A stretch of DNA of 52,366 nucleotides. It comes from a bacterium HR19 (GTDB lineage: Bacteria; Calescibacteriota; Calescibacteriia; Calescibacteriales; Calescibacteriaceae). How positions within the stretch are numbered: the first letter of the stretch is position 1; each line of letters opens with the position of its first letter. The stretch lies in NCBI GenBank assembly GCA_002898315.1, contig BEHV01000013.1, positions 1 to 52,366 on the forward strand, written 5' to 3'. Both the position numbers and the translations under genes were made by a program. Shown here piece by piece: positions 5,858 to 51,674 of the stretch. The notes under the pieces are model-generated. The model was not told the DNA's origin. It saw only the letters and a program-made list of their open reading frames with translations, and ran no database searches.

Positions 5858-7012
5858 TCAATCCATAATAACTCGTGTTCTTGCTAAAATATCTTGACCG
5901 GTTTTTCCTCTTATCAAAAAAGGTATTATTGCTCCCAAACCCAAAAATATGAAAAATATAGTTGTTAAAAATGAGCGAAGGAGAGAAGTTCCGAGGTCTA
6001 GCGGAGAGCCATCTGCTTTCTGAACTTTTATACCAAGGAGCCAACCCCCGGGCGTCTTCCCTTTCCAGAAAAACCAAAAGAGCCCAAGATAAAGAGAAAA
6101 GAAAAAGAGCTGGAATCCACCAAGATGCACATAAGATATTGAAATCTCTCTCCCGCCTATGAGAAATTTTATTTTACCTGGCTCTGCCTCAACCTTTCCC
6201 AAAGCTGTACCAAGCTTAACTTTACCCTTTTTACCCTCAAGCTCAACAACAGGGGTCTTTATGCCAAGAATTTTTTCCTCTTCACCTTGGTGCCGAGAAG
6301 CTGATTCCTTTCCCTCTTCTACTCTTTCAATGTTTTGACTACCGAGCTTGTATGTCAGGTCAGGGATAAATTTTCCTATAAGTAAGCCTGAAAGTATTCC
6401 GAAGCTACTTGCGAAGATAAGTATATCAAGATATAAAGCCAAAGCTCTTCTCCATAAAGGAGCGGGGAGGAAGTAAAGTTTCACATCTGTTGTTTCTGAA
6501 ACAGCAGAAGGTTTGCCGTTTATGAATATTTTCACAGGGTGTTCAACTCCTTTGACACTCAAAAGCGGTGTTGCTTTGAAATCTCCTTTTCCACGAGTTA
6601 TGATGTGAAAGACCGGTTCTGAAATACCTAAAAATCCTCCTTTTATAGAGTCAAGCATTCTGAAAGCAAAATTGACATGGAACCCGAAAACATCTTTCCT
6701 ATCTTCTGAAAAAATCACATCACCGACGTGCAAAAAAGCGCGTATTTTCAGACCACCAAAACTCAAAGAAGTTACTCTTTTTCCTACTTCAAGAGCGTCT
6801 TCTGATGATCTGAAAACGGTTATGGCACCATCACCCAAAAATTTCACAACCTCCCCTGAAAATTCTTTGCAGAGTTCTTTCACTTTATCTTCAAAATCTG
6901 AAACTATTTTTGAGACAACCTCTGGTCTCGCAGAAGAAGAAAAAGAAGTAAAACCTTCAATATCAATAAGAAGCAGATAATAAATTTCCCCTGTTCTCTT
7001 TTCGGTATTCAT
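5858..7012 (-). CDS. Class III adenylate/guanylate cyclase domain fused to RDD membrane domain
   Basis: A two-part protein of 384 aa. Residues 9-170 form a class III nucleotidyl cyclase homology domain: IDIEGFT with metal-ligand Asp17, FLGDGAITVF with Asp61, and NFAFRM with Asn114 and Arg118, the residues that stabilise the transition state in this family. Residues 183-384 form an RDD domain with the WRRALALYLD start, three hydrophobic spans, the GKTPGGWLLGIKV core and a KTGQDILART end. A charged insert (about residues 220-290) separates the first two spans. Cyclases convert ATP or GTP to cAMP or cGMP; which one cannot be read with confidence. The start is ATG 7012, with TTG 7015 as alternative. 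The next gene upstream is ccmF, 19 bases away. Confidence 0.85.
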   Translation of the reverse strand: MNTEKRTGEIYYLLLIDIEGFTSFSSSARPEVVSKIVSDFEDKVKELCKEFSGEVVKFLGDGAITVFRSSEDALEVGKRVTSLSFGGLKIRAFLHVGDVIFSEDRKDVFGFHVNFAFRMLDSIKGGFLGISEPVFHIITRGKGDFKATPLLSVKGVEHPVKIFINGKPSAVSETTDVKLYFLPAPLWRRALALYLDILIFASSFGILSGLLIGKFIPDLTYKLGSQNIERVEEGKESASRHQGEEEKILGIKTPVVELEGKKGKVKLGTALGKVEAEPGKIKFLIGGREISISYVHLGGFQLFFFSLYLGLFWFFWKGKTPGGWLLGIKVQKADGSPLDLGTSLLRSFLTTIFFIFLGLGAIIPFLIRGKTGQDILARTRVIMD

Positions 7013-7031
7013 CAATCAATAATTTATTAAA

Positions 7032-8972: not shown

Positions 8973-10079
8973 TTATCTCCTCAACATATCAAGCGCCAGA
9001 TTCATAAAAGAAACTGCTCTCCGAAGCGAAGAAATATCTGAATTCAAAATAACCTGTTTCAAGTTCAAAATAACAGCATCAGAAGTCATATCTGCATCTT
9101 CGTAATTTCCCTGAAGAACTTTAAGCTTTGACTTTATTATATCTCCTAAATCATTTCTCTGAGAGAGTTTTGCTATCTTCTGTCCGATAAACCCCCTTAT
9201 ATCAGATAAGTTTTTGAGGACAACTTCAAGATTTTGAGATACCATATCTGCTCCTTCCTCAAAGTCAGAAGGTATGCCAAGCTGGGCGGGTTCAAGAGAA
9301 GGTATGAAAAATCTTTCTTCATCGTTCTCACCATCTCCGAAAACTATAAGCTGTGGGTCCGCTCTTCCCTCAACCTTAACAGAAAAATCACTCGTGCCCT
9401 GAACTCTGATGCTTACTCCTAATTCTTCAAAGTCCACTATAAACGGCATATCTGATGGTTTCCCAACAACCTCTTTATTTTCTGTAAAGACGGGGGAGCC
9501 ATCTAAAAACAAAGTGGCTTGAAAATTATCCCCAACTCTATCAAATTGAATTTGAAAACTCTGATACTGCTTTATACCAAACCGGATGAAGTTAAGCCCC
9601 GATAGATTGAAATCTGTTTTTCTGAATTCAACATCACCACTTATGACCTCAACAGAAATAACAGAGTTAGAAAATCCACCTCTCCCCAGAACTTTTGAAA
9701 AAATAGTTGTTCTTCTCACAAGCTGTTCAAGAGCAGAAAGATTTTCTTTATACGCTTTTTCAAGCTCCTGAAATTCCTGATTATCTGACGATAAGCTTGC
9801 TCTATCAGAAATCATTTTTAGATTCTGGACATAGTTTGAGACCTGATTCAGAAGTTCTTCATATTTTTGAAGAACCGAGACATTTTTAGTAATGTGCTGT
9901 GATATAAAATCAAGCGTCTGAACACGCAGAGAAACAGAGTTTGCAAGAGCAATAGAAGTAGGAGAGTCGCTCTCATTTATTCTTCCCGACGATATTCTTC
10001 TTGAAACAGATTGAATATCTGATACATTTTTACGAACTTCGTTGAGTATAAAATGAGATATTGTTTTTGAAACCTTCAC
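8973..10079 (-). CDS. Flagellin / FlgL-family filament protein
   Basis: A 368-residue protein with flagellin ends. The N-terminal helices contain SRRISSGRINESDSP, matching the LSSG.RIN..DDP signature, and a heptad-rich coiled coil (residues 45-120). The C-terminal helices contain YEDADM followed by a long amphipathic helix ending LDMLRR. The variable middle (about residues 140-270) is beta-rich. Either flagellin or the hook-filament junction protein FlgL would have these ends; the adjacent FliW, a flagellin chaperone, favours flagellin. The GTG start overlaps the stop of the upstream glycosyltransferase gene (GTGA), so the two are translationally coupled. No other flagellin gene is in the window. 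Confidence 0.85.
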   Translation of the reverse strand: MKVSKTISHFILNEVRKNVSDIQSVSRRISSGRINESDSPTSIALANSVSLRVQTLDFISQHITKNVSVLQKYEELLNQVSNYVQNLKMISDRASLSSDNQEFQELEKAYKENLSALEQLVRRTTIFSKVLGRGGFSNSVISVEVISGDVEFRKTDFNLSGLNFIRFGIKQYQSFQIQFDRVGDNFQATLFLDGSPVFTENKEVVGKPSDMPFIVDFEELGVSIRVQGTSDFSVKVEGRADPQLIVFGDGENDEERFFIPSLEPAQLGIPSDFEEGADMVSQNLEVVLKNLSDIRGFIGQKIAKLSQRNDLGDIIKSKLKVLQGNYEDADMTSDAVILNLKQVILNSDISSLRRAVSFMNLALDMLRR

Positions 10080-11823: not shown

Positions 11824-12303
11824 TTACTTACCATGATGTATATGCTCCTTCGGTTTTTCAGGTGAAGTTTCATCTTTCTTGACCAAAAGTTCAACATCTA
11901 AAAGCTCTTCGGGACCTTCAAGTACAAGATGTTTGCCTTTTTTATTCCTTGCGTTTATTATGATTGGAGCAAGAAGGTTTGCAAAGAACTTACCGTTTTC
12001 ACACCTCAAAATAACTCTAACAGCAACATCTGCAACATCTTGAACCTCTATATCTTTCACCTCTTCGGGAGAAGAGAGGATAGAATAGTTATGAACTATA
12101 AAAGATGGATCAACAACAAAAAAAGCGAGGTTTGGATTTTCAAAAGAGTGAAGGACTTCAAGCGGAAAAGGCAAACTATCATTCACAACTTTCAGCAAGA
12201 AGAACTTTTTCTCTTCTGGGAAACCTATCAAGCCATCTGGGAAGAAAAAGACCTCATCTGGATTTATTTCAATCTGACCGAAAATTCTGGAATTGAACTG
12301 CAT
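11824..12303 (-). CDS. fliW: Flagellar assembly factor FliW
   Basis: Binds flagellin and, in many bacteria, CsrA, so that flagellin translation responds to export. The 159-residue protein has the family core FGQIEINPDEVFFFPDGLIGFPEEKKFFLL near the N-terminus, split here by no gaps, and the FFVVDP motif in the middle. A His/Lys-rich tail (KPKEHIHHGK) extends past the usual end. It is the first gene of an apparent operon with the glycosyltransferase-TPR protein and flagellin. No csrA is in the window. Upstream, the HU terminator at 12413-12440 separates it from the preceding unit. Confidence 0.93.
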   Translation of the reverse strand: MQFNSRIFGQIEINPDEVFFFPDGLIGFPEEKKFFLLKVVNDSLPFPLEVLHSFENPNLAFFVVDPSFIVHNYSILSSPEEVKDIEVQDVADVAVRVILRCENGKFFANLLAPIIINARNKKGKHLVLEGPEELLDVELLVKKDETSPEKPKEHIHHGK

Positions 12304-49429: not shown

Positions 49430-49795
49430 CTACTTATTTTTGTCTTTCTGATTCTTTGCTTTCTCTGACTTGGATGTGTGGATTTTAGTTGAAAACCTCT
49501 TGAAAATCGGAGTTTCAAGAGAGAAGACCTGAATATCTGAAACAAGGTTTTCGCCGAGAATCTCCTTATTTATCTTTTCCAATATCATATTTTTCTGGTT
49601 CAGAAGGAAATTTTTAAGGGTTGAGTCGTACGTAGATATTTTAAGGACTCCTTTTCTTATTTTTAGGGAATTGAATTTTCTGCGTCCCCCTATTTTTGAC
49701 CAGCTCTGTGATATTTTGAACTCAGCCCATAATTCTTTATCATAATCTTTCAGAAAATCTGAAATAGCAGAAGATAAAGGGAGAATCTTCTTCAT
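49430..49795 (-). CDS. DUF721 / DciA-like protein
   Basis: A 121-aa protein of the DUF721 family, whose member DciA loads replicative helicase DnaB in most bacteria. The family pattern is visible: a helical start, W..I.G......L.I..G.L.I......L..FL...K..IL..IN (here WSKIGGRRKFNSLKIRKGVLKISTYDSTLKNFLLNQKNMILEKINKEI), and an S.IQV end strand. The Lys/Ser-rich tail (about 100-121) would be disordered, as in DciA. ATG 49795 lies 7 bases after TAATTT and shares a 65-base intergenic region with the CNB-FliG gene. Confidence 0.7.
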   Translation of the reverse strand: MKKILPLSSAISDFLKDYDKELWAEFKISQSWSKIGGRRKFNSLKIRKGVLKISTYDSTLKNFLLNQKNMILEKINKEILGENLVSDIQVFSLETPIFKRFSTKIHTSKSEKAKNQKDKNK

Positions 49796-49860: not shown

Positions 49861-50583
49861 ATGAAAAAGACAGATAAGGGGACGCTGATATATCAGAAGG
49901 GAGAGACGATAATCAGAGAAGGTGAAAAAGAAAAGACAATATACTTTCTTGTTTCGGGTAAGGTAGGAATATACAAGGGTAAAAAACTTGTAAGCACAAT
50001 TGATAAGCCGAACTCTCCGATAGGTGAAATAAGCGCTATACTTGAAACTCCGAGAACAGCAACATGCATAGCACTTGAAGAAAGCGAACTTGTCGCATAT
50101 AAAGGTGGAATAGATGAGATAATATCAAAGTATCCTAAAACCATAAAGGCAATCATAAAGAGCCTTGCCGAAAGAGTTGCGAGATCGACCGAAGAACTCG
50201 GAAATGCTCAATCGGAAACTCAAAACTTTCAACCGAGCTTTGAAGCAAACTCTCAAAAAACGCAAAAACAAGAACTGGAAAATGAAGAAGTAAAAATTGA
50301 AAATTTCTCAGTAATATCAGAAATTCCAGATGAGCATCTTCAAAAATTCATTTCTACTCTTACAGAAAAGGAACTTGCGATAATCCTTACCAACTCATCT
50401 GATAAAATAAAAGGCAGAATAGAAAAATACATTTCAAAGAGAAAAATGGAGTCGCTAAAAGACCTTATGATTTTCTATTCAAAAAATGGTTTATCTAAGG
50501 CAGAAATTGAAGTATTGCATAGAAAAATAGAAGAAATAGCAGAAGCAATAAGAGAAGCAGAAAATAAATCCGCTCAAAAGTAA
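49861..50583 (+). CDS. Cyclic-nucleotide-binding domain fused to a FliG C-terminal-like domain
   Basis: A 240-aa cytoplasmic protein. Residues 5-105 form a CNB (CRP-type) barrel with the phosphate-binding cassette GEIS (55-58) and PRTAT (64-68, Arg65), so ligand binding looks intact. A polar linker covers 112-145. Residues 150-232 resemble FliG_C, the torque-generating domain of the flagellar rotor: IPDEHLQKFISTLTEKELA, SDKIKGRIEKYISKRKMESLK, then LSKAEIEVLHRKIEEIAEAI. Against E. coli FliG as I remember it, the 264-299 region aligns without gaps: Arg281 is kept (Arg194) and Asp288 is kept (Asp201), but Lys264, Asp289 and Arg297 are Thr, Leu and Gly. The FliG N and middle domains are absent. 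It may be a nucleotide-controlled regulator of the motor switch. Confidence 0.7.
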   Translation: MKKTDKGTLIYQKGETIIREGEKEKTIYFLVSGKVGIYKGKKLVSTIDKPNSPIGEISAILETPRTATCIALEESELVAYKGGIDEIISKYPKTIKAIIKSLAERVARSTEELGNAQSETQNFQPSFEANSQKTQKQELENEEVKIENFSVISEIPDEHLQKFISTLTEKELAIILTNSSDKIKGRIEKYISKRKMESLKDLMIFYSKNGLSKAEIEVLHRKIEEIAEAIREAENKSAQK

Positions 50584-50702: not shown

Positions 50703-51674
50703 ATGATGGTGAAAAATGAAAAGTTAAAAAGCATACTTCAATTCAATAAATATTTTTCATTACCAGAGAATATAAGTAAGTACCGCTCGGAATTTTCAAA
50801 ACATCTTCCGCTATTCATAGACAGAATAAAAATCCTGAAGAAAATAAACGAAAAACTTAAAGATGGAGAAAAAAGGTATCAAATAGAAGGAGATATAGAT
50901 TTCTTAAAAAGAATATCGGAAAAGACATTTGACAAAGATTTGAAAAGACATATTGAGCATACAGTGAATTTTCTTGAAAACCTCAAAAGACAAAAGAACA
51001 ATCTTTCAGAATGCAGTTGCAAGAAAAAAGAGTTTCAAAACCTCCACGAAATAGAAGAAGAAGTAAAGGAAAACTATGAGCCAGAAAAATTATGTAGATA
51101 TATAAATGAAACGCTCAAGGTGGTAATCTCAGACCTCATAAAAGGATTTGAAAGTCAAATAGCGAAGTTGAAAAAAGACGCTCTAACTCACGCATGGATA
51201 AGAATATGCCTACACGATGACCTGAAAAACATAGTAAAAAATTTAGAAGTCAACAGAAAAGAGAAAAATACCAAAAATAAAAAATTATTCATCGCCATAA
51301 TAGATTCTGATAAGCTGAAACAGATAAACGATAGGTTCGGGCATTCAGCTGGTGATATAGTGATAGAAAAAATTTCAGAAATCATAAGAAAGTCCATAAG
51401 AAAATCTGGGAGGGTATATAGATATGGCGGAGATGAATTTGTTCTTATAATAGAAGCAAAAGATGAGAACGAATTTTTGAAAGTGTGTGAGAAAATAAGA
51501 GAAAAGATAGGTAAGACAAAAATAAAATTAGATAATGGCGAGTATGTAAATACTACGGTAAGTATAGGAGCAACCAGAATCAAGAGCAAAAACATCAAAA
51601 ACCTTCTCAAAACAATAGATAGAAACCTTTACAGAGCGAAAAAGATGGGAGGGAACAGAGTGATTTTCTCATAA
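50703..51674 (+). CDS. Diguanylate cyclase (GGDEF) with helical N-terminal sensor region
   Basis: A 323-aa cytoplasmic protein. Residues 1-155 are helical and charged with a CSC pair (104-106); no known sensor fold is seen. The GGDEF domain begins DALTHAWIR at about 159, has Asp201 in AIIDSDKLKQINDRFGHSAGD and the intact active site YGGDEF (241-246). The place of the inhibitory I-site reads RKSG rather than RxxD, so product inhibition through that site is unlikely, in contrast with the 23568 protein. The start is ATG 50703, or 50706, with TATTTA 5 bases upstream. It follows the CNB-FliG gene on the same strand. Confidence 0.9.
   Translation: MMVKNEKLKSILQFNKYFSLPENISKYRSEFSKHLPLFIDRIKILKKINEKLKDGEKRYQIEGDIDFLKRISEKTFDKDLKRHIEHTVNFLENLKRQKNNLSECSCKKKEFQNLHEIEEEVKENYEPEKLCRYINETLKVVISDLIKGFESQIAKLKKDALTHAWIRICLHDDLKNIVKNLEVNRKEKNTKNKKLFIAIIDSDKLKQINDRFGHSAGDIVIEKISEIIRKSIRKSGRVYRYGGDEFVLIIEAKDENEFLKVCEKIREKIGKTKIKLDNGEYVNTTVSIGATRIKSKNIKNLLKTIDRNLYRAKKMGGNRVIFS

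Follow-up and report, generated by a model that had tools for sequence, protein, structure and literature searches.

To our knowledge, direct control of the flagellar motor by a second messenger is known for c-di-GMP and PilZ proteins, and transcription is regarded as the main route of cAMP and cGMP action. A gene in the window (the whole analyzed stretch of 52,366 nucleotides, from a genome of the hot-spring lineage Candidatus Calescibacterium) raises the question of whether a cyclic nucleotide could also reach the motor directly. The initial annotation had read it as a cyclic-nucleotide sensor joined to a FliG_C-like domain and had proposed a decoy rotor domain acting as a clutch or brake. 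The gene occupies positions 49861 to 50583 of the forward strand, to which all coordinates refer unless stated otherwise, and encodes 240 amino acids in one uninterrupted reading frame, with the ATG at 49861 and the stop codon ending at 50583. A promoter and terminator scan returned nothing better than shuffled sequences did, and no phage match was obtained (PHROG matches were weak, best E 0.015).

The N-terminal part was assigned to the cyclic-nucleotide-binding (CNB) domains by Pfam (cNMP_binding, PF00027; residues 11–79, positions 49891 to 50097; E 5e-15, 55.7 bits at a cut-off of 27.5). A sequence search of solved structures with this part returned CNBs of PKG, PKA, SthK and CRP type, and VIA alignment of the model with CNB structures reached Z-scores of up to 9.6. 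The phosphate-binding cassette (residues 53–69, PIGEISAILETPRTATC; positions 50017 to 50067) reads G55-E56-I-S-A-I-L-E-T-P-R65-T66-A67 and is intact, as had first been claimed, with E56 and R65 invariant in the five homologues of the family. T66, the threonine following the cassette arginine, is of the residue type found in cGMP-preferring kinases, and we therefore name the ligand as cAMP or cGMP without choosing between them. The protein shares the CNB fold and the intact cassette with CRP/FNR and SthK/PKG-type proteins, and SthK and CRP-type proteins are among its structural neighbors. In contrast to these, it carries no DNA-binding HTH, channel or kinase, and its output part is FliG_C. Pfam gave no match to an HTH DNA-binding domain, and none to PilZ or PilZNR at E ≤ 10. 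The sensor is followed by a helix (residues 92–114, positions 50134 to 50202; DSSP on the model, low confidence), which by analogy with CRP/SthK-type CNBs may serve as a dimerization or hinge helix, and by a variable, probably disordered tether (approximately residues 115–147, positions 50203 to 50301; pLDDT below 50 at residues 104–146), the length of which differs among genera.

For the C-terminal half (residues 148–235, positions 50302 to 50565), sequence and predicted fold together support an assignment as a FliG_C domain. The Pfam profile FliG_C (PF01706) matched residues 135–232 with E 2.8e-7 and 31.2 bits, above the curated cut-off of 23.3. The FliG equivalog TIGR00207 reached 16.0 bits at a cut-off of 226.7, so the protein is not a full-length FliG, and FliG_N, FliG_M and MgtE_N gave no Pfam match at E ≤ 10, in agreement with the initial statement that the N-terminal and middle domains of FliG are missing. 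When the C-terminal 100 residues were searched by sequence against solved structures, Thermotoga maritima FliG_C came first (1qc7, E 6e-4), and HHalign against 23 canonical FliGs aligned the domain with their C-terminal domain over 84 columns with a probability of 77% and E 2e-5.

The full-length AlphaFold2 model, built from five sequences, had a mean pLDDT of 66.7, a value lowered by the tether, with approximately 69–89 per block in the C-terminal domain. CNB structures filled the Foldseek lists of this full-length model, and a separate prediction and search were therefore made for the C-terminal domain. Modeled alone from four sequences, the C-terminal 100 residues reached a pLDDT of 86.6 and a pTM of 0.74. 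The first 17 Foldseek matches of this model in the PDB were FliG chains (probability 0.98–1.00, query TM of at most 0.73). VIA-align placed it on T. maritima FliG_C with Z 11.1–11.2 and an rmsd of 2–3 Å across 86–90 residues (for 1qc7_B, Z 11.1 and rmsd 2.3–2.8 Å across 86–88 residues); a Z of about 11 can be reached by chance for helical bundles. The assignment nevertheless holds, because sequence family, ranking of the matches and distance from unrelated folds all point the same way: FliG_M-type structures scored 8.2–9.2, FliG_N 8.0, MgtE 5.9 and unrelated folds at most 3.8. MgtE_N, FliG_M and FliG_N were rejected as identities of this half, as none appeared in the Pfam list and FliG_C fits the fold better. 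Another family or another fold, the outcomes named beforehand as speaking against the FliG_C reading, did not emerge from either Pfam or the predicted structure.

The family comprises five genomes of 82–86% completeness, which makes absence calls soft; the window's own assembly (G000) has 1.88 Mb and is 82% complete. The fusion is present in all five, each of which also encodes a canonical FliG. One copy, in a C. nevadense-type genome, is cut by a contig end, and four are complete, with identities to the window copy of 81, 58 and 47–48%. Between G000 and the family genome G002, the CNB gave dN 0.043 and dS 0.635 (dN/dS approximately 0.07), the FliG_C half dN 0.090 and dS 0.322 (approximately 0.28), and the freely diverging tether dN 0.49 and a saturated dS of 2.5. 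Between genera, conservation is strong in the CNB, much lower and intermediate in the FliG_C half, and absent in the tether. On these dN and dS values, purifying selection maintains the frame and the FliG_C half, though less tightly than it does the sensor. A chance fusion is excluded, since the gene is kept across three genera and a profile built from the family alone recovers the C-termini of canonical FliGs, in frames of approximately 345 amino acids, in other genomes.

Whether such a domain could meet a stator depends on its charged residues. MotA and MotB are encoded as an adjacent pair in the window's genome, and this MotA carries RREGVKAIE (an RREGxxAIE motif), which we take to fit the R90...E98 register of E. 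coli MotA. In E. coli FliG, the residues that matter most are R281, D288 and D289, with K264 and R297 secondary; the R281–MotA E98 pair serves torque and the D289–MotA R90 pair stator assembly (PMC6079164, PMC7564593). The equivalent of the torque helix (residues 193–209, positions 50437 to 50487) retains R281 as R194 and D288 as D201 in every alignment, and neither varies among the four complete homologues. K264 is replaced by T178, D289 by L202 (Leu or Ile across the family), and R297 by G210 in some alignments and S212 in others, a mapping identical in its kept and lost residues to that first given. The gap-free alignment to FliG that had also been described holds through the torque helix, which is directly followed by a two-residue insertion close to where the last helix begins. 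Thus, the domain has the fold and the R281 and D288 positions of FliG, but differs from it in lacking FliG_N, FliG_M, the MFxF hinge, K264, D289 and R297. With R281 and D288 kept and D289 lost, the head would retain the torque-type contact without the main docking contact, a pattern that would suit partial contact with the stator better than a complete docking surface like that of FliG. This argument is only suggestive, because the torque helix, with 6 invariant positions out of 17, does not exceed the remainder of the domain (21 of 71) in conservation. The residue pattern might be expected of a weak competitor, but also of a domain that is moving towards a different function.

The genome also encodes candidate partners and a possible ligand source for such a protein. 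A complete canonical FliG of 382 amino acids lies on another contig, flagellar genes have been reported for this phylum (PMC4791363), and one of three PilZ proteins combines PilZNR with PilZ and is YcgR-like. Two class III cyclases, a 1103-amino-acid zinc-ribbon/cyclase/AAA/TPR protein and an RDD-domain protein (positions 5858 to 7015), both retain, by eye, the Asp residues that bind metal as well as the Asn...Arg pair; the two cyclases could supply the ligand of the CNB. The class III cyclase noted earlier in the window was confirmed, whereas the mention of flagellin genes was slightly generous: the candidate at positions 8973 to 10079 scored 19.0 with Flagellin_N, below the cut-off of 26.6. 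The window further contains FliW (positions 11824 to 12303).

Approximately 120 nucleotides downstream of the fusion gene, G000 and G002 carry a GGDEF diguanylate cyclase of 323 amino acids (in the window at positions 50703 to 51674, Pfam 7.3e-31), a full-length orthologue of which was found only in this pair. It is possibly co-transcribed with the fusion gene in this genus, and its position may link cyclic-nucleotide and c-di-GMP signaling. In G003 and G004, the downstream gene encodes an unrelated protein of 265–271 amino acids that starts with a hydrophobic segment and matches nothing in Pfam (L054:6782-7597, 271 amino acids; relatives L138 and L139); G002 has this protein at another locus, and no copy of it was found in G000. 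A conserved operon around the fusion was rejected, as the neighbors differ among genera, and no conserved flagellar neighbor was found in G000, G002, G003 or G004. Such a missing operon is weak evidence, because the flagellar genes are scattered in the window's genome, where fliG sits amid non-flagellar genes and motAB are scattered too. Divergently from the fusion gene, on the reverse strand at positions 49430 to 49795, lies a DciA-like protein (23.1 bits, cut-off 24).

Outside the family, the family profile found no full-length fusion among 447 genomes, of which 386 were sampled domain-wide and 61 came from a single additional phylum. When 84,980 species genomes were scanned with a pattern seeded by two CNB motifs, and hence limited in reach to close relatives, the full-length matches were of Calescibacterium type only, the other loci being CNBs alone. 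The best-scoring standalone CNBs beyond the family lie in unrelated housekeeping neighborhoods. FliG_C searches of 60 and 163 genomes yielded many non-canonical FliG_C proteins; none of the approximately 27 that were read has a CNB, and nothing relevant to a CNB–FliG protein was found in the open-licence papers searched. The combination of CNB and FliG_C is a new domain architecture, for a kind of function that is already known.

The non-canonical proteins of other phyla, short forms or FliF-like/FliG composites, also carry FliG_C without being full-length FliG; unlike the fusion, none of those examined has a CNB. Three short FliG_C proteins of 148–175 amino acids without FliG_N (L035:3406-3930, L036:5437-5958, L142:543-986) come from three unrelated genomes and are possibly further rotor-domain decoys. 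Four others (L155:3-2222, L149:607-2121, L144:1261-2919, L157:1340-3001) combine N-terminal parts that look FliF-like by eye with FliG_M and FliG_C; in L155, the FliF Pfam match is near the cut-off and TPR repeats stand at the end. Three large proteins (L145:222-1775, L146:1357-2796, L147:1481-3025) end in FliG_C-like domains, and their genome, G136, also has a canonical FliG. A 397-amino-acid protein (L148:1322-2512, G141:C19) has FliG_C at residues 66–149, which is all that Pfam confirms; the part after it resembles by eye the cytoplasmic region of MotA (AxREGLxALExxLEELPHPLLxRGxRLALDG), and the protein is a possible rotor–stator fusion.

Our best reading of the Calescibacterium protein, by analogy, is a cyclic-nucleotide-gated motor effector that resembles YcgR in action and is unrelated to it in sequence. 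YcgR is a precedent for the site of action, because its C-terminal helix attaches to those MotA residues with which the FliG torque helix is in contact, and its other domain has been proposed to touch FliG (PMC12713396). Like YcgR and similar c-di-GMP effectors, the fusion is a small soluble protein that pairs a messenger domain with a part presumed capable of reaching the MotA–FliG interface; YcgR acts on motor output, and the fusion presumably does the same. They differ in sensor (PilZNR–PilZ in YcgR, CNB in the fusion), in ligand class and in the contact part, which in the fusion is FliG_C. The N-terminal CNB would bind cAMP or cGMP, and the FliG_C head on its flexible tether would copy the stator-facing part of the rotor. 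Upon binding, the head may be freed, or two heads may be joined via the post-CNB helix. As the tether is not conserved, a rigid lever is disfavored, and control by availability or avidity, for instance through dimerization by this helix, is favored. The freed head would contact its presumed partner, the cytoplasmic loop of MotA, near Glu98, and compete there with the real FliG, leading to lower torque or to stator release, that is, to a brake or a clutch. We give a soluble effector whose head competes at the MotA–FliG interface upon cyclic-nucleotide binding somewhat less than an even chance. Held more tentatively is the narrower proposal of a cAMP/cGMP-gated clutch or brake, in which a decoy rotor torque domain is shown to the stator in parallel to and independently of c-di-GMP and YcgR.

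A FliG_C domain alone is no proof of motor action, because domains of this type occur in many odd proteins. The fold could have been recruited for protein–protein interaction in general, within a protein that responds to cyclic nucleotides and is unrelated to the motor, as the lack of a motor-gene neighborhood, the loss of three of five stator-facing charges, the FliG_C relatives in unusual proteins elsewhere and the ordinary conservation of the torque helix would allow. Yet canonical FliG accompanies the fusion in every family genome, the R281 and D288 equivalents were kept in all complete copies while other charges changed, and Pfam gave no match to non-motor ARM-like families; we consider this explanation unlikely, while giving it real weight.

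Action on the rotor side appears more doubtful. Here, the head would bind FliM or a neighboring FliG in the C-ring and bias the switch or change the C-ring composition upon cyclic-nucleotide binding. FliG_C normally packs on other C-ring parts, effectors such as YcgR touch both rotor and stator (PMC12713396), and the loss of D289, which serves stator assembly (PMC6079164), weakens a pure stator-docking model, but the ring-building middle domain of FliG and the MFxF hinge are absent from the fusion. If the C-terminal half were the decaying relic of a duplicated FliG, joined to a CNB that alone is functional, its faster divergence and smaller number of invariant positions would be explained, but this is very improbable given the dN/dS of the FliG_C half, the frame intact in three genera and the complete, confidently predicted fold.

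Returning to the messenger-gated motor effector, the fusion is probably a new form of motor-directed second-messenger effector. If this is true, the stripped FliG_C head, with R281 and D288 present and D289 absent, would allow a clean test of the rotor residues that suffice for stator engagement, and the chimera of a sensor and a rotor domain would represent a second, structurally independent route of direct messenger control of the motor.
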